This document shows, in pieces, positions 6,601 to 52,282 of a stretch of DNA of 58,403 nucleotides. The first letter of the stretch is position 1. Each line of letters opens with the position of its first letter. This DNA comes from a virus: the IMG/VR virus record IMGVR_UViG_3300007276_000054, positions 1-58,403 of that record; one strand, 5' to 3'. Under the pieces are notes generated by a model. The model was not told the DNA's origin. It was given only the letters and a program-made list of their open reading frames with translations, and searched no databases. A program made the position numbers and the translations under genes.

Positions 6601-9600
6601 AGGAAGAACCTTCTTCGTGTCCTTGGCAAGGACAAGAGCACCGATTTGAATGAGCTCACTAGCTTCGGTGACGGGCATACCGTCGCGCTTGTCGTAGAAC
6701 CAACTGTGTCTATAGGGATTCATACCAACCTGAACCCACCCCTCCTGAACACCCTCAGACTTATGGTCCTTGTGGTACTCTTTGGAGGCCATAATTTTCT
6801 CAGCCTTAGCCTTGATGGTTGCGGGGTCGTGATTCACCCAGTCACCGAACATCCTAGCTATTGTAGTCTTGTTTGTTCTAGTTGCAATACTCAACGAGCC
6901 GATTGGACTACCGCCAAACTTGACACCTTTAATTACGCCAGTCTGAGAATAAGCAACAGCCTTTCCGCTGGTGTCGCCAATCTTCTTTGCAAATGAGGAT
7001 GCGGTCTTGTTGCCTTCGTGAACAGAGGCAACCCATACATCGTAAGTATTGTATGCAGGGATATCTAATCTCAACCCAACAAAGTAACCCTCTGGTAATT
7101 CCTTATTGAGGTCGTAGATTCCTGTCTCCAACTGAGAACTTTTCAAGGCTGCGCCAATCTCTGGTAGCGTAGGCATATCGGGCACTACATCAAAAGGCGT
7201 GATAGGCATAACCCCTCTTACCACTTCGATGTATTGTTCCTGTGTAAGCGTCCCCTCTTTCATGGCCTCAATAGCCTCTACATTTCTGGGGACTCTATCA
7301 AGTCTTTGGTTTTTATCTAGCTTGAGTTCTGACTTAAGTTCTGTAAGCTGTTCCTCTGTTAAGTTGGCTGTGCTTAGGAAGCTCTCTAGCCCGGCGCCAG
7401 TTCTCAAGCTTTCATCAAGCTCTCCTTGAAACCTAACCTCCTCGTCGTCAGAAACTTGACGCTCTTCAGGCTTTAAATTCAGCCCCTCTGTAGCCTTTGA
7501 AAGACCAGCTACCGCCTCTGTAACATCTTCGCCCGAAGCCATCCTTCCCGTTAGGTTTTCAATAGCTCTACCTACGTCAGAGATGCCCGGAGTTGGAATC
7601 TTTCCAACAAAAGGCAATGGGCTAAGACCACGGTTTATCAATCCAGAAAACCGCTCAATCAATCCACGCTTCACCTCAATGCTCAAGTTACCGGCAGAGA
7701 TGTCCGCTAGAAGCTCCGTCAAAAACTCATCTGCAAATGCAGCAGACTGCATAAGCTTAACTATGTCGGTCTCCTTTGTTCCGTCAATACCTAAAGCCGT
7801 TAGTTGCTCTTGAACTCTCTCGCTTTGAAGCACTCTACTTAGGTACTTGCCGAACTTGTTGGCAACACCTTCACCTTGAAGAGATTGCGCTAGCTCTGTA
7901 GCTAAACCAACGAGAGCCTCGTCACCCAACATCGCGTCAAGACCTAGCTCGTGGTACCCTTCGTGGTACGCTGTGTTTTCAAGAATCGCAGGAACGAGCA
8001 AATGAATTTTGTAACCGCCGTCTTGTTGCTTAGCGACATACACACCTCTACCAACCTTTCCACCCGGGACAGAGTTTGCCATAGACGCTATAGTCTTATG
8101 AATCATAATCCCCTTGAACCCCTTCTTCGTCTTCGATAATGTCTTTACCGCAGTGATTGTGTTCCTTAAGCCATCCATAACGGCCTGAGGAGAAGATATT
8201 CTACCTAACCCAAGAGGCAAGTTCAATGCCATTTTATCGAGCAACAGATTATTAATCCTGTCAAGGACATTATCCGAGTTTGCTTCGTCAACAACAACGC
8301 TTTCCTTTCCTTCAAACAAGGTGTCAAGACTGTACTCTTCAAGAACTCTGGACACGTTGTCCATTATCTGGTTAGTCGTAGTCCGAGAACCCAAGTCGTG
8401 AGAAACATCAAGGTCTGTTTCCAGCTTTGCTCTCTGCTTAACCAATCCGTTTACTTCGTTCCTAAGTCTTCTTCTCTGGCTTTTGTTTTCAGTGCGTTCG
8501 TAATCAATAGCCTTCTTCGTAATCTGTGTTTGAATATCTACAAGAGTTGAGTAGGCTTCGGGGTCTGATTGTCTTAGCTCTTCATAGTAATCTCTTCGCT
8601 TCTTTCCCTCCGACTCGTTCTTTTGAATAGCGCCTACTAGTCTAGCCATTACTTCTCGGCGACCAGATACAGTTTCTTGAGCGTCTAGTTCTTTCTTGAG
8701 CTGTTGAATTACCAGCTTAGATTGTATAGACGGGATAGAACTTGCAGCTAAGCCAAGTGCCCCAACAGATGAACCAGCACCTGCAATACCACCACCCATC
8801 ACAGCACCTGCATAGAAGCCGTTCTTTATGGCCTTGTCCATTTGGACAACATCAATGTCTTGACCTTTTGCGTTCTGCTCAATGACGTACTGCATGCCGC
8901 CTGTGACAGCCTCTGTAATCGCCTCTTCTCCCATTGCAAGGGGAGTGTTCATGATTGCACCGTAGATGAAATCAGCAGCGCCTTTTGAGTTAGCCCTTAA
9001 GCCTTTAAACCTGTCAAATATTTTAGCACCTACAAATGCGGGCGCACCTTCTGCAACACCATACCCTAGAACGAAACCACCTTGCTGTACAACGTTCATC
9101 TTATTGAACCATTCCTCGTCACGAGCAATGTCATAAGCCGTCAACGAGCCCATCCCAGCTACAACTCCAGCAGTGAGCTTACTGTTTCCTGTAAGCCTTT
9201 GAGTGACAATAGCAGCAGCCATCATTGGCACACTATGGCCGAAGTCAGAGACAACATCTGCCATGCCTCCAGACCAGTCTCCGTTTTCAAACTTTGAAGC
9301 AGGGTCAACTTGAGGCGTTGAACTGTACCTATCAATAGAATTTGATAATTCCTTATAGGCTTTACGGTGCATGTCTGTCTTCTGCCTTCCGTATGCCCAC
9401 TCCCCAAACGCTAACTCAACAGCGTTTACGCCAACGTCCTCTAATCCGACACCTAACGTGCCCACTATCTTAACAACTTCTGAGCCTAACCCACGGAAGA
9501 AATCAGCAGTAACGTTACGTCCTTCAGACGTGTCACCGATGTACCCAGTGTCGTTGAGGTCCGCCATAATGTCGTACTCCTCAAGGAGGTGACGCTCAAG

Positions 9601-30908: not shown

Positions 30909-31301
30909 TTATGAGGTTATTGAAATATCTTCATTCACCTTCAGCGTGCCATAAATCAATGTGCTTACAGTATCTCCTGATTTTTGCTCAACGTCATATA
31001 CATACAGTCCAGCAGGCATTGTCTTCATTACACTCGCCGCTACATTAAGGTCAATGTATTTTGCAGTGACGTCCGTGCCGGACGCTGTCACGTCGTCCGT
31101 AAAGTTGGCACTGCCGTTGCTCACCAGAGAACCTACATCAGAGTCTCTCACCTCAAAAAGAAACACATCACCCGACGCGAAAGCAGCAGCATCACCCGCC
31201 GCGTTAGTAATAGTCAAGCGAAGAGAGAACGTGTCTCCTTTTCTACAAGTAACATCCACTCTGGATGAGGTATCTAGATTGATTTTTGTTGCGTTACTCA
31301 T
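30909..31301 (-). CDS. BppU-like beta-sandwich structural protein (130 aa)
   Basis: The pattern (DVTCRKGDTFSLRLTITNAA near the start, then VFLFEVRDSD, and PAGLYVYDVEQKSGDTVSTL near residue 105) is that of small beta-sandwich domains at the start of baseplate/fibre adaptor proteins (BppU N-terminal-like). It overlaps the portal gene by 8 nt and precedes the collagen-like fibre, so it may anchor fibres to the head or tail. The fold is inferred from pattern only. Confidence 0.55.
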   Translation of the reverse strand: MSNATKINLDTSSRVDVTCRKGDTFSLRLTITNAAGDAAAFASGDVFLFEVRDSDVGSLVSNGSANFTDDVTASGTDVTAKYIDLNVAASVMKTMPAGLYVYDVEQKSGDTVSTLIYGTLKVNEDISITS

Positions 31302-33744
31302 CTCCTAGGATTTGATTCATGATGTCATTGTTTGCTTCTGGGTCACCCTCAATTTCCCCTCTCCTTCCCTGTCTCTGAGAGATGAGCTTGCTTTGCTCAA
31401 CAGCCTGCTTCTGAACCCTAGAATCCTTACGGTCCTCCTTGAGTACTTCAATCTTTTGCCTGAACTCTTTATCGTCGGCCTTGAACCCGAGACTTGACTG
31501 AGCTCTAATCATCTCAATCTCTTTACGCATCTCATGCATTGCGGCAGCAACCTGAACATCAACCTGACCTTTTAATTGCATCTTCTGTGAATCGGCCTGA
31601 GCTTCCATTTGGATTCTCTGCATTTCCATTTGAGCCTTCTGCTGTGCCGCTTGTGCGTTCATCTGAGATTGCATCTGCATATTCTGTTGTTGTTGTTGTT
31701 GCAACTTAGCCAAACGCTTAGAGCGTCTAACAATCAACAGCCTTTGAGCTTGGTCAATGTCTTTTACTTGACGAACCGCCATCGCATCCTCTAGGTCAAT
31801 CTCTTTCTGCGCGAGGCTTGCCTGTACGTTCTGCTCTAGAAAGATTCGGTCATCGTCTGACATCTCTTGAACTACGCGAATTCCAAAGTTGTACATAGGC
31901 AGCTCGTTAAAGCTGTTGAGGATGTCCATACTTTTTTCTCCAATAGCCTTGGCGTAGACCCGGTAGAGAATAGATTCTTTTGGAATAACCTGTAAACACT
32001 TAACAACGTCTTGACAGACTCTCTTGTAGAGTACCATGCTCGCGTTTGTTATGTCGTACAAAGCGTTGTTACCAGCAGCAATAGCTTGTTGCCGCACGCC
32101 AACGAGTGCTTCCCCTTTCGGAGTACTTGCATCCATAACTTCATTGATGCCCGTAGCATCCCTAATCATACGGAGGTAGTGGTTGTATAGGCCGATGTAC
32201 TCGTTGATGTTTCGAATGCTGTTCTCAATAGACCGGATGGGTGGGTTTTGGAATCCCCCTTCTGGGTTCTTGCTTCTGTAGTAGAACACACCAGTCTGTT
32301 CATAGATGTCTTGAATCTGCAAGGGGGACAACTCACCACCTCTTCCTAGCTGCACGTTTTCAAGACCTTCAATATCCACTAGTACGCCGTCGGGCTTTGC
32401 CTTGGCTACCGCTTGCTGAATTTTCAAGTGAGTCAACTGTAGCTGGTCAGCAAATCCTAAGATGCCGCCCACCATAGACTTAGGCATCATTCGACGTAAA
32501 TTAGTAGTAGAAACACTATAAGAGAGCCGGGCCTTGGTAATGTCATGAACGTTTTTAGGTACGTTCTTTTTCATACCGTAGTTGTAAATCAAGTCAGTGC
32601 CCATCACGTGGCAGCCACCATATACGGTTTGATACTCCATCTTGTGAGCCTCCCTGTCGTACACAGAATTAGATGGCATCTTGTACTCAGAGCCCTTGAA
32701 GTAGAATCCAGTGTTTCCGTGTTGAGTGTCTTTACTCTCGTAGTACACGCAGTCCACAGAAACAAACTCAAAATCCATGATGTCTATCAAGTAGTCGTCA
32801 TACCCAAAAGTATACTTCTGTCTGGTTTGGTCGTAGGTTTTATAGTCAAAGGCACTGCCGTTATTGTAGCTTTTATTCTTTACTGAACTAGCAAGCTTCT
32901 CGTACTCTGACTCAGGGATGTCGCTGCCGGCCTGACGCTTAAGTTCTTGAATGCTGATTCTCTGAACGTGAGCACCGTACACGATATCAGACATGTTAGG
33001 GTCTTCCGTGTAGCTATGAAGGAACGTAGCCGGGTCAATGTACTTAGTACTAATTCCGTAGTTGGGGTCGTTGTCTCTTTTGGCTACTGCCATACCACAT
33101 ACTACCAAGTCTTCTACACACCGTCTATAAACCTTCTGGTCAAAGTCGTTCCAATCCAGAGTAAGTGCAGTGCCTAGTTGAGCTGCAATCTCTGCGTTGG
33201 TCTTCATGTTTTGCTCCATAAAGATTTCCGCCTCTTCTGTAGTATCGGGAAGTTCGTCAGGGTCAATCTTAGGTTGAAGACCTAACTGCTTTGCTTGTTG
33301 AAGCAGCTCCTTGTCTTTAATCGATGACTCAATTGTAGCACGAGCCATGTCCTTTTCGTTCTTACTTATCGGGTCAAGAGCCTCGACCGAAGGATAAGGT
33401 TTACGAGAAAGGATGCGGTTCACCACGACCTTTACGAATTTCGGGACAATAGGCACAGGGCTCCAGTCCAGATTTAGTAGTGTCCCGTCCCCGTTATTAG
33501 GGTCGAGAGAGTTTAGGATTTGCTTGTAGATAGACGTGTCCTGAGTTCCGTTGGCGTAATCTCGGCTCTTGTCAAAATCATACATACGGCGACGAAACAA
33601 TGATGTTTGGTCGGCACCGTATCCCCACTGTGAGTTAATCGCTTTAGCAAAGAGAAGTCCATATTTCTTGGACACCTTTACCTCAGGAGAAACAAACGGG
33701 TCAGGGAAGCTTCCATACTTGTTATTTTTGTTCCCGTCGGTCAT
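31294..33744 (-). CDS. Portal protein (crAss-like type, 816 aa)
   Basis: ATG 33744 (MTDGNKNNKYGSFPDPFVSP) is preferred; a longer frame would begin with TTG at 33789 and run through a promoter-like TATATTTG. The N-terminal block, with YGLLFAKAINSQWGYGADQ, a Tyr-Ala-Asn-Gly-x-Gln-Asp segment and LNLDWSPVPIVPKFVKVVVN (about residues 88-107), is characteristic of crAss-like phage portals. The middle holds wing/stem-type helices. The C-terminus is a very Gln/Met-rich coiled coil (about 685-765) and a charged tail. It forms the dodecameric DNA entry ring. It lies between terminase and the fibre genes, so fibres separate portal from capsid in this genome. Confidence 0.8.
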   Translation of the reverse strand: MTDGNKNNKYGSFPDPFVSPEVKVSKKYGLLFAKAINSQWGYGADQTSLFRRRMYDFDKSRDYANGTQDTSIYKQILNSLDPNNGDGTLLNLDWSPVPIVPKFVKVVVNRILSRKPYPSVEALDPISKNEKDMARATIESSIKDKELLQQAKQLGLQPKIDPDELPDTTEEAEIFMEQNMKTNAEIAAQLGTALTLDWNDFDQKVYRRCVEDLVVCGMAVAKRDNDPNYGISTKYIDPATFLHSYTEDPNMSDIVYGAHVQRISIQELKRQAGSDIPESEYEKLASSVKNKSYNNGSAFDYKTYDQTRQKYTFGYDDYLIDIMDFEFVSVDCVYYESKDTQHGNTGFYFKGSEYKMPSNSVYDREAHKMEYQTVYGGCHVMGTDLIYNYGMKKNVPKNVHDITKARLSYSVSTTNLRRMMPKSMVGGILGFADQLQLTHLKIQQAVAKAKPDGVLVDIEGLENVQLGRGGELSPLQIQDIYEQTGVFYYRSKNPEGGFQNPPIRSIENSIRNINEYIGLYNHYLRMIRDATGINEVMDASTPKGEALVGVRQQAIAAGNNALYDITNASMVLYKRVCQDVVKCLQVIPKESILYRVYAKAIGEKSMDILNSFNELPMYNFGIRVVQEMSDDDRIFLEQNVQASLAQKEIDLEDAMAVRQVKDIDQAQRLLIVRRSKRLAKLQQQQQQNMQMQSQMNAQAAQQKAQMEMQRIQMEAQADSQKMQLKGQVDVQVAAAMHEMRKEIEMIRAQSSLGFKADDKEFRQKIEVLKEDRKDSRVQKQAVEQSKLISQRQGRRGEIEGDPEANNDIMNQILGDE

Positions 33745-33767
33745 AGAATAAAGTTTGGGCTCATTTG

Positions 33768-33775
33768 CAAATATA
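33768..33775 (-). promoter_or_regulatory. TAnnTTTG -7 box for the portal gene
   Basis: The minus strand reads TATATTTG, 23 nt before ATG 33744, in the gap after terminase. It supports the shorter portal start. Confidence 0.5.
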
Positions 33776-33794
33776 ACAATAGTCCCCAAGGCTT

Positions 33795-35900
33795 TTACAC
33801 CTTGTATCTCCTGAAGAAGACCGCGTCGTCAAAAGTCTTTTTCTTTTGTTTAGGCTTTACTTTTTGAGCGGCGAGCAGTGCTAAACCAGAACTAATCGAC
33901 AAGTCATACTTTGTTCTGTTGTCAATCTTGAACCCTATCCAGTCTTCCAACGTCCTGTTGAAGTACATAGAGCCGGGGTTTCCATCCTCGTTTAATCCTA
34001 CATGATTGTGAATGTAGTCTTCTATTGCAGATGCGTGAGCTTGAATAACGTCTTGTGAGTTTGAGGGGATACCCTTTGTCTTTGACATAGACGAACCCGC
34101 CTTCAAGTGCTCTGGCCTATCCATGACATAGCCGTCGTAACCCCTTGATTCAAAGTACCTTACGATTCCGTACTTGTTGTTCTCAATCAAAAGGGGGTAA
34201 CCATAGAACACGGCAGCCATTAGAACATCCTCGTAGAAGATGCTCGCCATCGGTGGTCTGCTTGCATACTCTGCAACAAACATATTAGACGCACCGTTCA
34301 AGTTGAACTTGTTGTATATATGGCAAGCACCTTTGGATGACCTACCATCAACAGTAGCGTCTAAGTCATAAGAGTCAACACCCCCGCAACCCATAGACGG
34401 ATTTGAAGGTACACGTCTGCCACGCTCCTCACCTATGACACTTCTATTTCTGTCTTCAGGCATCCAGCTTATGTACCATCTTCCTTTCGGGTCTGGATTA
34501 AAAAACACCTTGGTGTCTTTGATTCCTTTACTCCATTGGAAATTTCCTCTGACAACTGGGCTAGGATACATGTGGTCATTGTGTTCGACCTGCTCGTAAA
34601 TCTTTCCAATGTTAAACAGACTTCCTTCGATGCTGTCCCTGAAAGCTTCGTCCGGAGTAAAGGGGAACTGACGAATGATTTCATTCATCTCTCTGGCGTC
34701 GTGTTTAACGGAGTCTCTTTCGTTCTTTAGGAATGACCTAGCACCCAATGACATGTTGTCACCGTCAAGTGTCTCTACCGGGCTCTCAGGGTCTTCTATG
34801 ATTGGCTTGCCGTGCTTGTCAAAGAACCCCTCAAGAGATTCATACGCAGGAATGAATAAACGATATAGTCCAGATACTGTTCTACCGTTAGCGTTTCGTT
34901 TAGTAGGGTCAGAGTCTTTCCAAATCTGCTTGTACTCTTCCCCTCCTTTGTCCATTGGATTTACAGTAGAGCCTACCAGAGCCTTACCCACAATACGTCT
35001 ACCCACGATAAGGCAGGTTCTTTCTATTCTCCAAGCCTCACGAATGTCTGAAGGCTTCTCCCACTTGCCGGCCTCATCCATGTAAAGCATATGAAGCTTC
35101 TCCCCATCGTATGCATTGTTTGTTGTGCTCTTCCAGTTTAGAACGGTGTTCAATGCATCACCAGCGTAAGACGTTTTGTTGTTCTTAGTGATTCTTTTAG
35201 ACGGCTCGCGAAAAGCTAATTCCATTCGAGGGTTAGTGGTACCGTCTTGAATTGGTTTGAAGAAGAACGGGTAGTGCCTAAACATAGACACCACTTTTTT
35301 CATGAAGATGTTTTCTTGTGCGTCCTTACCCGTCTTGGATTGGATGCCGAGAAGTTTGTCTTTTACCTGCGTAGCTTCGTCAAGCAGAACAGAAGCGCAG
35401 ATATTAGTGTAACCAGAGCGACGACACTTAGTGTAAAGCTGCCCAATACAACGTGAGTCAGCTTCGCACGCAGCCATGTGAAGAAAGATATCCCTTTGAA
35501 ATGCGAGATATGACGGGTACCCAATATCAATCTTAGTCCACTGGAGTAGCATGTAGTGCCTTCCGGTAACATACGTAGGCTTACCCGCGTTGTAAAACCA
35601 ATGACCGTCACGACGCCTTCGAAACTCCTCCTCGATATATGGACGAAATCTCTCTCGAAACTCCTTTGGCGATTCGGCCCACTCGTCCATGCTTCGAATA
35701 CGGGACAGCTCTTGTGGCAGAGGTACCCTGCTCCACACCTGCAAATCTGACGCCAGCCCTTCTCCTTGGATTCCTTCTTTTGGTTTTTCGGGTAGGCCAA
35801 TGAGAAGCCCCCCAAGTTCGATGACGTCCCCAAGCGTACCGTTGGGACAAACCTTGACAACCTCTTCATCATATCCATCTACAATTGCTAGGGCGTTCAT
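33795..35900 (-). CDS. terL: Terminase large subunit (701 aa)
   Basis: The start at 35900 overlaps the stop of the zinc-ribbon gene (TAATG). ATPase domain: a degenerate Walker A-like CRRSGYTN (about 159-166) after an adenine-binding Tyr-Thr-Lys, and a Walker B LHMLYMDEAGKW (about 279-290) with the catalytic Glu. SKTGKDAQENIF and NPRMELAFREPSKR lie between them. The C-terminal RNase H-like nuclease is marked by GVDSYDLDATVDG. This arrangement, including the weak Walker A, is as in crAss-like TerL. It packages DNA into the prohead through the portal encoded next. Confidence 0.85.
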   Translation of the reverse strand: MNALAIVDGYDEEVVKVCPNGTLGDVIELGGLLIGLPEKPKEGIQGEGLASDLQVWSRVPLPQELSRIRSMDEWAESPKEFRERFRPYIEEEFRRRRDGHWFYNAGKPTYVTGRHYMLLQWTKIDIGYPSYLAFQRDIFLHMAACEADSRCIGQLYTKCRRSGYTNICASVLLDEATQVKDKLLGIQSKTGKDAQENIFMKKVVSMFRHYPFFFKPIQDGTTNPRMELAFREPSKRITKNNKTSYAGDALNTVLNWKSTTNNAYDGEKLHMLYMDEAGKWEKPSDIREAWRIERTCLIVGRRIVGKALVGSTVNPMDKGGEEYKQIWKDSDPTKRNANGRTVSGLYRLFIPAYESLEGFFDKHGKPIIEDPESPVETLDGDNMSLGARSFLKNERDSVKHDAREMNEIIRQFPFTPDEAFRDSIEGSLFNIGKIYEQVEHNDHMYPSPVVRGNFQWSKGIKDTKVFFNPDPKGRWYISWMPEDRNRSVIGEERGRRVPSNPSMGCGGVDSYDLDATVDGRSSKGACHIYNKFNLNGASNMFVAEYASRPPMASIFYEDVLMAAVFYGYPLLIENNKYGIVRYFESRGYDGYVMDRPEHLKAGSSMSKTKGIPSNSQDVIQAHASAIEDYIHNHVGLNEDGNPGSMYFNRTLEDWIGFKIDNRTKYDLSISSGLALLAAQKVKPKQKKKTFDDAVFFRRYKV

Positions 35901-36085
35901 TAGATAACTCCACCCCACCGGTCACTCCTAAAGCTGGGTACACCGGTCTTGGGTTCATTGTTGTTCATGTGTGAGCCACACTCATCACACTTGATGTCGT
36001 GCCTTGCTTCTCCGTCAATTATTTTAATTGATACGTTGTGCCCCTTCTTTATGCTTTCACATTTTGGGCAAATAAATTCAGCCAT
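35900..36085 (-). CDS. Small zinc-ribbon protein (61 aa)
   Basis: Two CxxC knuckles are visible: FICPKC (residues 4-9) and IKCDECGSH (31-39), a typical zinc-ribbon. Between them is a basic strand (GHNVSIKIIDGEARHDI). Its stop overlaps the terminase start and its own start touches the previous stop, so it is translated with the terminase. It may bind DNA, RNA or a protein partner in packaging or late transcription. The metal-binding call is firm; the role is open. Confidence 0.7.
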   Translation of the reverse strand: MAEFICPKCESIKKGHNVSIKIIDGEARHDIKCDECGSHMNNNEPKTGVPSFRSDRWGGVI

Positions 36086-36378
36086 TACTTTGAGAATTTT
36101 TCAGCAAAACCTCCAGAGTAATCCTTAATCTCTTCAATAGAGCCGGTAACCTTTAGAGCTTTAGCCATTTGTTCTAGTCGTTGTCTTTCAACGAGCAGTT
36201 CTTTGCAGTCTATAGCGGTCTGCTTGATTGACTGTAGTTCAGCTTTTCTAGCGCTACCTCCAGCCTCGGGGTCAACCGGTCTCTTGACCTCGTCAATCAT
36301 GTTGTCTATAGCTATCTCCATAGACCTCATCAATCTCTCAGCCGCGTCTACGGTTGTAAATTTATTCTTTGACGACAT
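36085..36378 (-). CDS. Helical protein before terminase, candidate small terminase (97 aa)
   Basis: 97 residues, mostly helical and charged (AAERLMRSMEIAIDNMIDEV, then ELQSIKQTAIDCKELLVERQ). It lies two genes before the large terminase and overlaps the co-chaperonin gene by 17 nt. Size and position suit a small terminase subunit or DNA-binding adaptor, but no helix-turn-helix is clear. Treat as hypothetical. Confidence 0.5.
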   Translation of the reverse strand: MSSKNKFTTVDAAERLMRSMEIAIDNMIDEVKRPVDPEAGGSARKAELQSIKQTAIDCKELLVERQRLEQMAKALKVTGSIEEIKDYSGGFAEKFSK

Positions 36379-36949
36379 AAGACAAATCTTCTAGACGCAT
36401 CCTATAAACTATTGAGTCATCATCAAGCTTCATCTTGTAGTCAGAACCGACGTCAAAACCAACAACGTCTCCAATTTCAACACCCTGCTCGATTAGCTGC
36501 GGGTGAGGCATAACTACAATAGCCGTCTTGTCGTCAACCTCCTCTGTCTTAAGGTTAACGATAATACCAGAATCTGTAACCTCTTCTTCGGTTTCTTTTT
36601 CCGGTGGCTGAACAAAGACCCATCCAGAAAGCATTGACAGCTCACCTTCTGAATCTCTATAAGCAATTGCGTGAGAAGCCCTAGAGTGTTCTTGGTCATA
36701 AACCACAATGTACTTGTTGTCCCCAAGGCTAAGCGAAGGGTTTGTGGTTACGTGATGGTGAAAGAAAAGAGTGTCCCCCTCCTTTACTCCTGTATCTATT
36801 AAGAAGGGAGCGGAAACTACAGAGCCGTGACAAACGCGATGGTCAAACTCGTTGAACCTAGTGTCAAGGTAAAGTTCTTTTTCTCCCAGCTTTATTGTGT
36901 CCTCATGCTTTTCGAGCACCTCAACAACAAAGTGGCGCAATACTTTCAT
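36362..36949 (-). CDS. GroES-like co-chaperonin (195 aa)
   Basis: The chain shows two small beta-barrel halves. The first begins with VLRHFVVEVLEKHEDTIKLG, then GDTLFFHHHV (about 58-67) and a segment ending LSGWVFVQP (about 107-115). The second has SGIIV, then IEQGVEIGDVVGFDVGSDY and a C-terminal YRMRLEDLSYVV. The Gly-Asp-x-Val-x-Phe and 'Tyr-Arg-Met-Arg' endings are as in GroES folds and phage co-chaperonins (functional analogues of T4 gp31). It probably caps host GroEL to fold the capsid protein. No GroEL gene is present. It lies in the late run just before terminase genes. Confidence 0.7.
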   Translation of the reverse strand: MKVLRHFVVEVLEKHEDTIKLGEKELYLDTRFNEFDHRVCHGSVVSAPFLIDTGVKEGDTLFFHHHVTTNPSLSLGDNKYIVVYDQEHSRASHAIAYRDSEGELSMLSGWVFVQPPEKETEEEVTDSGIIVNLKTEEVDDKTAIVVMPHPQLIEQGVEIGDVVGFDVGSDYKMKLDDDSIVYRMRLEDLSYVVKE

Positions 36950-39670: not shown

Positions 39671-40102
39671 ATGAAGAATATCATCATCATCCTAACAGCC
39701 CTTCCGGGCTTCCTCTTTGCTCAAAGCGAAATCGACATTAATATTATTGTAGCCCCACAGGGGAACCTGTTTGCCTCTACGGAAAACGACGACGCGGTAT
39801 GGTCGCACTTCTTAGAGCCGTTATACTACAGCATCGATAACCCTGCCTTCGTGCCCTTTGAGTATGGTTCAACAGTACTAGATTTCACAACAGGTCAAAA
39901 AGGAACTCATCACTTGCTCCTCACAGCTGGCAGCGATACAATCGCATACGTCATACTACACATTGACCACACAGTACTGTCAGTCCATAACTACCATGAA
40001 ATTCTAGTGAACCAAACCGAAGACTCAAACGCTACGTTTGCGCCTACACGCAACAATAAAGTGAGTAGCATCTTTGGACTTGAACCCGGACTGCAAGATT
40101 AA
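39671..40102 (+). CDS. Small secreted protein with signal peptide (143 aa), moron-like
   Basis: A classic signal peptide of Bacteroidota type: MKNIIIILTALPGFLFAQSE, cleavage expected after FA or AQ near residue 17-18. The mature chain is beta-rich without Cys and lacks a sorting domain, so it is probably periplasmic. It lies alone on the plus strand between minus-strand late genes, with its own bipartite promoter, and its stop overlaps the stop of the convergent 433-aa gene (shared TTAA). Such a unit looks like a 'moron' that alters the host, for example superinfection exclusion. No family recognised. Confidence 0.65.
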   Translation: MKNIIIILTALPGFLFAQSEIDINIIVAPQGNLFASTENDDAVWSHFLEPLYYSIDNPAFVPFEYGSTVLDFTTGQKGTHHLLLTAGSDTIAYVILHIDHTVLSVHNYHEILVNQTEDSNATFAPTRNNKVSSIFGLEPGLQD

Positions 40103-42551: not shown

Positions 42552-42758
42552 TTATTGCAGCTGGTTTTTAGCCAACAGAACTTTGACTTCTTGGACCTCT
42601 TTTAGCAACTGCTTTACGTCGTCCTTCATCTCAGAATTGTCTGTCTCCAAGGCAGTTACTCTCCCTTTCAATGAGCTGTAGTCTGATTGATGCTTAATCC
42701 AAATACCAATTAACGAGCCCGCTATGAGCAGTAGCTCAAATTGTGTCATTGCGTCCAT
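42552..42758 (-). CDS. Membrane-anchored coiled-coil protein (68 aa)
   Basis: ATG 42758, with TACTTTTG 5 nt upstream; a GTG two codons earlier is less likely. One N-terminal transmembrane helix (FELLLIAGSLIGIWIKH, about 7-23) is followed by a heptad-rich coiled coil (LKGRVTALETDNSEMKDDVK, then LLKEVQEVKVLLAK). This is the build of phage spanin-type or holin-associated membrane proteins, but it could equally be another membrane accessory. The promoter of its own suggests separate timing from the T9SS-type gene upstream. Confidence 0.6.
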   Translation of the reverse strand: MDAMTQFELLLIAGSLIGIWIKHQSDYSSLKGRVTALETDNSEMKDDVKQLLKEVQEVKVLLAKNQLQ

Positions 42759-42763
42759 GCTCA

Positions 42764-42771
42764 CAAAAGTA
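42764..42771 (-). promoter_or_regulatory. TAnnTTTG -7 box, near-leaderless promoter
   Basis: The minus strand reads TACTTTTG, TGAGC, then ATG (42758). Confidence 0.5.
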
Positions 42772-42788: not shown

Positions 42789-43997
42789 TTATTTCAATAC
42801 AATGACGTGACCTGATGCATTGACAATGTGTGAAGAAGCTACTTTTGAAGCCTTAAGAGAGTACACGTAACTGCCATCAGAAACGCCCGAAAGCGCCCAC
42901 TGCTCTCCCGGGTCATTGCTGTACCAAACAATCTGACCCCATCTATTATAAACGTTAAGCTCCCAAGTCCTCCAGCACTCAGGGTCTGTAACGGCATAGA
43001 ATGTATCATTAATACCGTCTCCATTAGGCGTAACGGCATTGGGAATAAATACGTCAACCTCGTCACACACCATACCTACTATGTCTTCACACAGGAGTCC
43101 AGAGTCGCAATCAATGTATTCTGTTACAACAGAGTATTCTGTTACCATTACCGTGTCAGTTAGGTATATGTACTCCGTAAGGACGACGTCTACATATGTG
43201 GTGTCGTAAACGGTTGTCTCCGTGAAGACCGTGTCCGTTAAGTATATGTAGTTGTCTATGTAGGTGGTGTCATACATGTACACCTCGATGTAATTGTCTA
43301 CTATCAGGGTGTCTATGATAGTTAGCGTTAAAGTGTCGGGCGGCATCTCCACGTACACTGTGTCGGTCTGATACACATAGACCGTATCCACCAACGTGGG
43401 GTCTGGGCAGAATGTCAATCTGTTATCACTCAGGTTGATGTCGGGGTAGGTTTGAGTTTGATTGAAGCTAGTTCCGGAGCTCCACCCTTCGGGGAATGGA
43501 AAGTCCTCGTAGTCCGCCGTTTGAGATACGTTTATCTGCCATATTACAACCTCCCAGCAGTAGCCCTCTAGCTCTGTATCTATGATGCAGTCCCAACTAA
43601 ACGGTGGATTGAGAACGAAATTAGTGAATCCGTTTGTCCATCCCGTATTGTTTGAGGACATAACATAAGACCATCCCGGATGAAACGTATTGGACGTGCA
43701 GTCCGTGTTCTCTCCATAGTCCTCTCCAGTTACCTCGTCCACGTAGTGGAGGCCAAACACAATATGAGTTACCGTCTCGTTGTTTGAGACATTGAAGCCG
43801 CCGCTTTCTTCGCACGTGTTACCATCGAATTGGGTGAACTCATTGCAGCCACAGTTCTCAGTGTTGAGCCATTGGACTTGAAAGGAGTGTAGTCCGTTAG
43901 AAACGGCGGCGCCAGTGTACCCTAGTAGTGCTATGTCGCAGGTCTGAGAGTAGGATACAAAGGGGGCTAAGAGAAGCAGAAGAAGGGAAGGTTTCAT
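42789..43997 (-). CDS. Secreted protein with T9SS type B sorting domain (402 aa)
   Basis: Signal peptide MKPSLLLLLLAPFVSYSQ (1-18). The mature N-terminal domain (about 19-200) is Cys-rich (at least eight Cys) and aromatic. Next comes a linker of Asp-Thr-Val-Tyr-Val-type repeats (about 201-296). The C-terminal domain (about 313-402) has FIPNAVTPNGDGINDTF (317-333), then LNVYNRWGQIVW (347-358), DGSYVYSLKA and GHVIVLK at the very end. This is the gliding-motility-type (CHU_C, type B) sorting signal read by the type IX secretion system. The protein would be exported by the host Sec and T9SS machinery to the cell surface. It starts the late minus block from a TAGATTTG promoter. Host-derived origin is likely; the phage role is unknown. 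Confidence 0.8.
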   Translation of the reverse strand: MKPSLLLLLLAPFVSYSQTCDIALLGYTGAAVSNGLHSFQVQWLNTENCGCNEFTQFDGNTCEESGGFNVSNNETVTHIVFGLHYVDEVTGEDYGENTDCTSNTFHPGWSYVMSSNNTGWTNGFTNFVLNPPFSWDCIIDTELEGYCWEVVIWQINVSQTADYEDFPFPEGWSSGTSFNQTQTYPDINLSDNRLTFCPDPTLVDTVYVYQTDTVYVEMPPDTLTLTIIDTLIVDNYIEVYMYDTTYIDNYIYLTDTVFTETTVYDTTYVDVVLTEYIYLTDTVMVTEYSVVTEYIDCDSGLLCEDIVGMVCDEVDVFIPNAVTPNGDGINDTFYAVTDPECWRTWELNVYNRWGQIVWYSNDPGEQWALSGVSDGSYVYSLKASKVASSHIVNASGHVIVLK

Positions 43998-44001
43998 GCC
44001 C

Positions 44002-44009
44002 CAAATCTA
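44002..44009 (-). promoter_or_regulatory. TAnnTTTG -7 box, near-leaderless promoter
   Basis: The minus strand reads TAGATTTG, GGGC, then ATG (43997). It is the outermost promoter of the late minus block. Confidence 0.5.
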
Positions 44010-44063
44010 GCAACTTTTTGGGCACAGCTTTCCCTCATTCACTCTCTAGTTATTGTGACGTTA

Positions 44064-44129
44064 GGGGCTCACGATTACCCCATGTGTCTAAGCCCCGTAG
44101 GTGTCAAGCTGGTCCGCCCAAGCGGGCCA
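44064..44129. other. Two hairpins in the divergent early/late gap (43998-44211)
   Basis: The gap between the T9SS-type gene (minus) and the 44-aa gene (plus) holds a stem GGGGCT/AGCCCC (44064-44096) and a perfect-type stem TGGTCCGC, loop CCAA, GCGGGCCA (44110-44129, one G-U pair). Neither is followed by a T-run, so these are not plain terminators. They may be regulatory RNA structure or a replication-linked element. Confidence 0.45.
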
Positions 44130-44211
44130 AGTGCGATACCGTTTTCGTGCCAAGGCAAAGCAAAGGTACACGAAAAAAACTACAAAGTCAAGTACTTATT
44201 ACGCTTCTTTA

Positions 44212-44346
44212 ATGGCTGAGCGAATTGCTCGTATCACCATCAAGAACCAGATTGTTATAACAGAGTATGCTACGTATGAAGAGACCATGCCTAATGTCAA
44301 TTTTGTTTCGGGCGCAAAAGTACATTTTGATTCGCCATTTGACTAA
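44212..44346 (+). CDS. Small hypothetical protein (44 aa)
   Basis: ATG 44212 opens a 44-residue product (MAERIARITIKNQIVITEYA, ending GAKVHFDSPFD), beta-strand rich. A longer frame back to 44101 runs through the hairpin region and is not favoured. It is the first plus-strand gene after the divergent gap. No family recognised; small early phage proteins of this type often bind host enzymes. Confidence 0.45.
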   Translation: MAERIARITIKNQIVITEYATYEETMPNVNFVSGAKVHFDSPFD

Positions 44347-45832: not shown

Positions 45833-46759
45833 ATGAGCAAAGAAAAGCAAGACATCTACCAGAAAGTGACCGACCGCATCGTGGCTGGTCTGAACCAAAA
45901 GGGCCTCACATGGTTCCGTCCATGGACCTCCGACGGAATGATGGCCCCCATCAATAACTCAACCGGACGGGCCTACAAGGGCATCAACGTCCTCCTGCTT
46001 TGCGCCGAGGCTGTTGAGCAAGGCTACGAGCACAACGAGTGGGTCACCTACAAGCAGGCCGTTGCCATAGGAGGCAATGTCAAGAAAGGTTCCGAGTCCA
46101 CCTTCATCGTGTTCTGGAACATCGTCTACAAGTGTGTTGAGACCGGGAAGAGCTACCGCAAGTTGGAAGACATTCCCGTGGGGAAGCGATACACAAAGCT
46201 GTTCTTCCCTCGTTCCTTCAACGTGTTCAACATCGACCAGTGCGAAGGTTTGGAGCCACGCCGTGAAAAGGTAGAGCCCACCGGAGACTTCAACCCGATT
46301 GAGCAGGCCGAGAACATCTACAAGGAGCAGTACCCTAAGGAGGTGCGCCCCACGTTGGCTCACGGCGGTTCGAGCGCCTTTTACGTCCCCAGCAAGCACC
46401 ATGTGCAAATGCCTAAGCAGGAGACATTCATCACCAGCGATGACTACTACAAGGTGCTCTTCCATGAGTTGGTCCACAGCACAGGACACGACACCATCCT
46501 CAAGCGGTTGGACAAGGTTGCTGCCTTCGGAGGCGATGCTTACAGCAAGGAAGAGTTGGTCGCTGAGATTGGTTCGCAGTTCCTCGTAGGTCTGACAGGG
46601 ATACAACCCAAGGACGATGAGACCAACAGCCAAGCCTACATCAATGGCTGGTGCAAGAAACTCACTGACCATCCAAAGATGGCTTTGAGTGCAGCGAACA
46701 AGGCCATGAAAGCCGTGGACTTCATCACAGGGGAGGGGGCAGTAGCTCCTTCCCTCTAA
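45833..46759 (+). CDS. ArdC-like antirestriction protein with zincin domain (308 aa)
   Basis: N-terminal ArdC-type domain (about 1-120: IYQKVTDRIVAGLNQKGLTW, then WTSDGMMAPINNSTGRAYKG and INVLLL), a single-strand DNA-binding fold known from plasmid ArdC. C-terminal zincin metallopeptidase domain (about 175-300) with HELVHSTGH (211-219) and a downstream EELVAEIG (about 240-247) supplying the third ligand. Both domains belong to the ArdC/MPTase-PolyVal class. ArdC protects incoming DNA against restriction on entry into a new host. Expressed from its own bipartite promoter in the accessory early region, consistent with early defence. Codon use is G/C-richer than in structural genes. Confidence 0.8.
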   Translation: MSKEKQDIYQKVTDRIVAGLNQKGLTWFRPWTSDGMMAPINNSTGRAYKGINVLLLCAEAVEQGYEHNEWVTYKQAVAIGGNVKKGSESTFIVFWNIVYKCVETGKSYRKLEDIPVGKRYTKLFFPRSFNVFNIDQCEGLEPRREKVEPTGDFNPIEQAENIYKEQYPKEVRPTLAHGGSSAFYVPSKHHVQMPKQETFITSDDYYKVLFHELVHSTGHDTILKRLDKVAAFGGDAYSKEELVAEIGSQFLVGLTGIQPKDDETNSQAYINGWCKKLTDHPKMALSAANKAMKAVDFITGEGAVAPSL

Positions 46760-52011: not shown

Positions 52012-52085
52012 GCCCTCGTAGCTCAGATGGATAGAGCAACTGCCTTCTAAGCAGTAGGCCATAGGTTCGATTCCTATCGAGGGTG
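52012..52085 (+). tRNA. tRNA-Arg (anticodon UCU)
   Basis: Full cloverleaf: acceptor GCCCTCG/CGAGGGT (first pair G-U), D arm GCTCAGATGGATAGAGC, anticodon stem ACTGC/GCAGT with loop CTTCTAA (anticodon TCT at 52046-52048), T arm ATAGG TTCGATT CCTAT, discriminator G. CCA is not encoded. It reads AGA (and AGG) codons and resembles the bacterial tRNA-Arg(UCU) closely in D and anticodon arms. It lies between two operons. Confidence 0.95.
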
Positions 52086-52282
52086 CATTAAGTCACACGC
52101 CCATCTTAAACTTTACCTTGTCGGGTGAGGTGGGGTGTCCAGTCCTTTACCTTAAGTATTATAGTAGGAGTAAGGGGTCAAGTCAGGTGGTGTGTGGCGA
52201 CTTGTGTAGGCCCTGTTATGGACATCAAAGACTGACGGCTCGGAAAGACGAGCATCCTCGAACACAATTAAACCAATTATAA
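52086..52282 (+). other. Non-coding region with possible RNA structure between tRNA and replication operon
   Basis: 197 nt without a gene. Possible stems include a 7-bp helix GGTGTCC with GGACATC (one G-U) and a hairpin GCTCG-GAAAGA-CGAGC (52238-52253). An AT-rich stretch, CCTTAAGTATTATAGTAGGA (about 52149-52168), looks like a -10 region. It could be a structured leader or small RNA co-expressed with the tRNA, and must hold the promoter of the replication operon. Confidence 0.4.

Follow-up and report, generated by a model that had tools for sequence, protein, structure and literature searches.

The locus described here raises the question of what a phage might gain from a gene whose product ends in a sorting domain of the type IX secretion system (T9SS), a secretion system specific to Bacteroidota. 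The window, meaning the whole stretch of DNA that was analysed, is the virus record IMGVR_UViG_3300007276_000054 of 58,403 bases. Its TerL (33795-35918; phrog_6681, E=1.4e-201) and its portal (31294-33789; phrog_6547, E=6.5e-188) both match crAss-type PHROGs, and judged by these two genes the record is a crAss-like phage. Among the matches listed, most phage records with a related TerL belong to Flavobacterium or Cellulophaga phages (42-48% identity). The reading favoured here, with a probability of roughly one half, is that this is an accessory gene of the phage, encoding an orphan type B cargo for display on the host surface, where it would most likely serve in receptor masking or superinfection exclusion.

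The preliminary description had proposed that the phage encodes a T9SS type B cargo with a signal-peptide-like start, a Cys-containing domain, a DTVYV linker and a type B sorting domain, and this anatomy was confirmed on the ORF that heads Table 1. The N-terminus, the cysteines of the N-domain and the DTVYV-type linker are visible in the window protein and recur in the aligned members of its family. The sorting domain was recovered by profile search: over residues 317-385 the protein matches Pfam CHU_C (PF13585, type IX secretion signal domain; E=4.4e-14, 52.8 bits, cut-off 27). The NCBIfam model of T9SS type B proteins (TIGR04131) gives 30.3 bits with the window protein, under the cut-off of 35 that is passed by 7 of 10 relatives tested (35.6-41.9 bits). 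The assignment as phage-encoded type B cargo draws further support from what is described below: the gene is conserved and under purifying selection, it has passed repeatedly from phage to phage, and its sorting domain has been exchanged, all of which suggests that the host T9SS is really used.

Table 1. Features of the cargo gene and its surroundings (positions are those of the window)
Feature	Position	Strand	Basis or remark
Cargo gene, T9SS type B, 402 aa	42789-43997	minus	ORF; CHU_C; dN/dS 0.04-0.11 where dS could be estimated
Putative signal peptide, residues 1-18 (MKPSLLLLLLAPFVSYSQ)	43944-43997	minus	sequence by eye; hydrophobic leader kept across the family
N-domain, residues 18-202, mostly beta-strand predicted	43392-43946	minus	family alignment and AF2 model
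Linker, DTVYV/TDT-rich, residues 203-313	43059-43391	minus	sequence; payload/tag break in relatives at the linker/CTD border
Type B T9SS C-terminal sorting domain (CTD), residues 314-402	42792-43058	minus	Pfam PF13585; TIGR04131
Bacteroidetes-type promoter-like site, TTG-N20-TACCTTTG	44161-44191	minus	pattern scan; heads the minus-strand block
Conserved 5' leader	43998-44160	minus	promoter and leader comparison
70-aa neighbour, hydrophobic N-terminus and coiled coil	42552-42764	minus	missing with the cargo gene in L086
Left flank of accessory site, 88 aa	42258-42524	minus	70% identical in L086
Right flank of accessory site, 163 aa	44752-45243	plus	88% identical in L086

The cargo gene is, as had been claimed, the first gene of a minus-strand block, which includes packaging and structural genes and whose position suggests late timing; opposite lies a block of plus-strand genes, among them ArdC and genes for replication. 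The ArdC-type antirestriction protein, which has a zincin domain, is encoded at 45833-46759 (+), and a single tRNA-Arg (tct) is found at 52012-52086 (+). The promoter-like site is the sole host-type one just upstream of the cargo gene; it matches the consensus and is conserved in four relatives. Promoter and leader of the block (43998-44215) are together 89-94% identical in the related contigs L004, L006 and L007. The same site is found in the relative L086, which is without the cargo gene, and therefore belongs to the block; of the promoter that had been ascribed to the gene as its own, the site itself stands and its exclusiveness does not. The conserved leader was also considered as a structural RNA, which was set aside (fold z-score 0.04, no Rfam match). 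Within the minus-strand block there is one lone plus-strand gene (39671-40102, 143 aa) with a signal-peptide-like start; it is kept at 77-85% in L004, L006 and L007, and a different gene with a signal-peptide-like start stands there in L086.

Four contigs, L004, L005, L006 and L007, carry the cargo gene at 66-83% identity to the window. Gene order is the same as in the window over many kb in L004, L006 and L007, and L005 shares part of the neighbourhood. Comparison of the window with L006 gives a dN/dS of 0.04 for the whole gene and 0.03-0.04 for the N-domain and linker, and comparison of L006 with L007 gives 0.11, figures that are rough because synonymous sites are near saturation; on these estimates the gene is under purifying selection in its syntenic relatives. 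L086, whose TerL is 84% identical, retains both flanks and lacks the cargo gene together with the 70-aa neighbour, and thus presents the empty form of an accessory site.

Proteins that combine a signal peptide with a CHU_C domain are ordinary in Bacteroidota, which could be counted in favour of an assembly chimera or a fragment of a dying host. This reading is refuted, as nearly as such a reading can be, by the syntenic relatives: the same synteny recurs in other contigs at 70-83% identity, the gene is under purifying selection, and its G+C (0.468) is practically that of the window (0.467). The cargo gene is thus not a misassembled host fragment, and neither the absence from relatives nor the misassembly against which the preliminary description had cautioned was found. 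The place of the gene at the head of a block with packaging and structural genes would suit a function in the virion or in lysis, with CHU_C being no more than an Ig-like fold. Such a function is highly improbable, as the complete family members aligned combine a signal-peptide-like start with a C-terminal sorting domain, the gene is accessory and missing in close relatives such as L086, and its position differs among phage lineages.

The alignment of the N-domain (45 sequences) has 15 invariant columns, three of which are Cys, and the AlphaFold2 model is beta-rich and of moderate confidence (pLDDT 71.2, pTM 0.70). No Pfam or PDB sequence family was matched by the domain, and the search of its fold against the PDB gave nothing at E<=0.001 (best E=0.022), the matches being generic beta-sandwiches; a specific fold match being absent, the binding role given to the domain here is one that we infer. 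The best match among viral models, and the closest annotated relative, is protein A0A7S9STS8 of Virus NIOZ-UU157, which has a similar size (406 aa) and is 60% identical over the N-domain. Its name, 'Gliding motility-associated C-terminal domain-containing protein', is an automatic annotation, and no discussion of it was found in the accessible parts of the literature naming this virus.

The same two peptide patterns, which recover 58 of the 59 known family sequences, were used on viral contigs and on 84,980 prokaryotic species genomes, and they retrieved 97 relatives in the former versus a single one in the latter. With patterns of this coverage, relatives of ordinary divergence should have shown, and more distant ones may be missed. 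The sole genomic match, L158 (WLWP01000006.1), is a 61.6-kb contig binned in a Pseudomonadales MAG; it is syntenic with the phage contigs L057 and L058, encodes a crAss-type TerL, and contains the only CHU_C match within the 5.8-Mb MAG genome. A second contig of this MAG also gives a crAss-type TerL match. When plasmids were searched with the relative L040 as query, matches were to the CTD only and all on Bacteroidota plasmids. Deposited phage records yielded neither the N-domain nor the companion protein introduced below, only the CTD being matched, in two uncultured phages of 635-642 kb. Within the collections searched, the N-domain therefore looks virus-specific. The suggestion that the whole gene might be captured from a host is accordingly not supported in these collections: no close whole-protein bacterial homologue was found, bacterial matches concern the CTD only, and the one genomic match is itself a phage contig.

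When viral contigs were scanned, 76 loci were obtained, and with further scans and the TerL loci L137 and L157 the family extends to about 95 contigs, counts that are not independent, as several carriers, which are metagenomic, are near-copies from related samples. The carriers encode either crAss-type TerLs, which belong to several lineages and are as little as about 20% identical, or an unrelated Terminase_6N, and a T4-type Gp23 capsid match was obtained in 9 of 18 carrier records tested. Kinship of the cargo does not follow that of the phages. TerLs that are 20% identical (L030 and L040) or 28% identical (L074 and L061) accompany cargo proteins that are 75% and about 80% identical, respectively, whereas L157 and L137 have TerLs 88% and cargo proteins 38% identical. 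The window cargo itself is 45-48% identical to that of the T4-like L018, versus 38% to that of its crAss-like cousin L040. In a maximum-likelihood tree of the N-domain, grouping of the crAss-like carriers as one clade is rejected (AU p=5.7e-10), and the tree requires five or more switches between crAss-like phages and others; the long branches of L137 and L157 call for caution in reading this tree. As the gene tree rejects crAss monophyly, the cargo gene moves between phages.

The position of the gene varies across phage lineages. In many crAss-like relatives it occupies a slot between a small gene and TerL, which measures up to about 1.7 kb without the cargo gene and 1.6-2.7 kb with it. Chaperonin-like genes are also encountered: a Cpn10-like protein is encoded at 36362-36949 of the window, and in L148 an ORF in the pre-TerL slot (7550-9097) reads like a 515-aa GroEL.

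The two ends of the protein have, in part, separate histories. Between L044 and L047 the N-domains are 95% identical versus 34% for the CTDs, with the break at the linker/CTD border and with the DNA flanking the gene about 80% identical on both sides; L025 compares alike with L039, L040 and L044. In the converse case, CTDs that are 77-80% alike stand on N-domains only 45-49% alike. That N-domains 93-95% identical can stand with CTDs only 34% alike indicates that the sorting tag can be swapped like a label, and assembly error is made unlikely by both tag types recurring across several contigs and unrelated phages.

What the label would be read by is suggested by work on bacteria. According to the accessible part of PMC12618676, PorP/SprF-like proteins are the specific partners of type B cargo, which they collect and anchor. 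Secretion of such cargo requires five motifs of the CTD, A-E. In Flavobacterium johnsoniae, as far as the accessible parts of two reports go (PMC12618676, PMC9143113), orphan type B cargo, which lacks an adjacent shuttle gene, can use a shuttle encoded elsewhere, and the CTD of SprB alone is enough to direct other cargo to the gliding machinery. The phage protein resembles such orphan cargo, and it is on this resemblance that it is very probably exported by way of the host Sec pathway and T9SS and anchored on a host shuttle. A search for the shuttle family (PF11751) in 27 records gave zero matches, with the positive control likewise silent; a host shuttle is proposed because no phage shuttle gene was found in this search. 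Possession of a T9SS by the host of the window is suggested by the sorting tag and by the TerL kin in Flavobacterium and Cellulophaga phages. Some carriers encode further T9SS cargo, this time of type A: the second cargo proteins of L225, L226, L227, L228, L229 and L230 (680-1049 aa) end in a type A sorting domain and contain several copies of a GCTDPxAxNYN-type motif.

That the exchanges fit the tag to different host shuttles is a tentative proposal. The tag could instead be the active part, filling the PorP/SprF-like shuttles of the host and displacing type B adhesins such as SprB, so that gliding stops and surface structures needed by other phages are lost. Exchange at the linker/CTD border is compatible with this, as is the cognate CTD-shuttle pairing (accessible part of PMC12618676), and phage resistance in Flavobacterium columnare goes with loss of gliding (PMC3534065). 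A mere decoy, however, would have no need of an N-domain that stays 93-95% identical where the tag was replaced, and the partner proteins of relatives would be left unexplained; shuttle competition is thus regarded as unlikely to be the main function.

These partners are of two kinds. Beside most family genes lies a companion gene for a protein of 119-144 aa whose start resembles a signal peptide and whose tail is EF-hand-like. A scan based on the companion gave 59 loci, in 55 of which a family gene is close by; the other 4 have a CTD-bearing gene (3 of them near the contig start). The two genes mostly overlap by 9-12 bases, and in the T4-like group the family gene lies just upstream of the companion instead. 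The second kind is an M43 peptidase, whose domain relates the family to pappalysin/cytophagalysin-type peptidases. In L061, L062 and L066 its gene takes the companion's neighbouring place and shares a tail motif with the companion; in L059, L060 and L065 the M43 domain is fused within the N-domain protein; and in L253 an M43-like gene was read from the sequence upstream of the cargo gene. In the window neither a companion gene nor an M43 peptidase was found. The companion fold was modelled poorly and the model set aside (AF2 pLDDT 56.9, pTM 0.27). A cohesin/dockerin-like pairing of the N-domain with the EF-hand-like tail was also dropped, as Dockerin_1 and EF-hand matches fall under the cut-off.

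A gene for a BspA-like leucine-rich repeat/DUF285 protein stands directly upstream of the cargo gene in L158 (8655-9944) and L057 (7410-9899), the Pfam assignment having been made on L158 only. Such neighbours, together with the M43 peptidases and the additional type A cargo of some carriers, would fit a protein that binds surfaces or substrates and so aids the infected cell, over a slow infection, in attachment, aggregation or feeding. In the window protein, though, no recognisable catalytic or carbohydrate-binding domain was found, and the N-domain is without a close bacterial counterpart, so that a benefit of this kind is also held to be improbable as the primary role. Among purposes, receptor masking or superinfection exclusion is placed first, at slightly less than even odds and with the sequence itself giving no decisive preference, followed by competition for shuttles or gliding, and then by adhesion or feeding.

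Under the favoured reading of surface display, the protein would be exported in the infected Bacteroidota host by Sec through its signal peptide, whereupon the type B CTD would hand it to the host T9SS. It would then stay on the outer surface, attached to a PorP/SprF-like shuttle of the host, with the N-domain as an exposed, virus-specific binding module and the repetitive linker as a stalk. There it would most likely coat or occupy a structure of the infected-cell surface, either a phage receptor or the gliding/T9SS surface apparatus, and competing or newly released phages would fail to adsorb to the covered structure. The exchanged tags of relatives would plausibly suit different host shuttles. 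More broadly, and at somewhat less than even odds, unrelated phages of Bacteroidota, both crAss-like and T4-like, may share a circulating cassette for surface display that is confined to viruses. Its payload would be a conserved binding domain, which may be accompanied by an exported companion or an M43 peptidase, and its T9SS tag would be exchanged to match the shuttles of the hosts. The gene family suggests that phages use the type IX secretion machine of the host to remodel the infected-cell surface.

Phage-encoded T9SS cargo as such was already known from two isolated remarks. In Cryophage, cargo with a T9SS sorting domain was proposed to be exported by the host system, possibly for superinfection exclusion (Bellas et al. 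2020, PMC7468147), and the accessible part of a second report describes BACON cluster 2 proteins of crAss-like phages that have a T9SS sorting domain and are encoded near head genes (PMC6949934). The N-domain family, its companion, the crossing of lineages and the tag exchange appear to be new, no description of them having been found in the open-licence literature. With these the remarks become a defined, testable gene family that is found across lineages of phages. Should the protein indeed be displayed, phages would alter the infected-cell surface through a secretion system confined to Bacteroidota, and the natural tag exchanges would offer ready-made material on how type B CTDs match shuttles.

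The comparison with known systems can be drawn as follows. SprB and the orphan type B cargo of Flavobacterium johnsoniae have the type B CTD in common with the phage protein but are chromosomal bacterial proteins (PMC12618676, PMC9143113) with no known kinship to the N-domain. Pappalysin/cytophagalysin-type M43 peptidases, represented in the family, have no counterpart in the window. The BACON proteins and the window protein are both T9SS sorting-domain proteins of crAss-like phages, but the former consist of BACON repeats and come from gut phages, and an N-domain of the window type is not reported in the accessible part of that paper (PMC6949934). In Cryophage, type A tags are carried by an endoglucanase, a GH39 protein and a PA14 protein of a single phage (PMC7468147), whereas the window family combines a type B tag with a virus-specific domain present in several unrelated phage lineages, a companion in relatives, and exchange of the tag.
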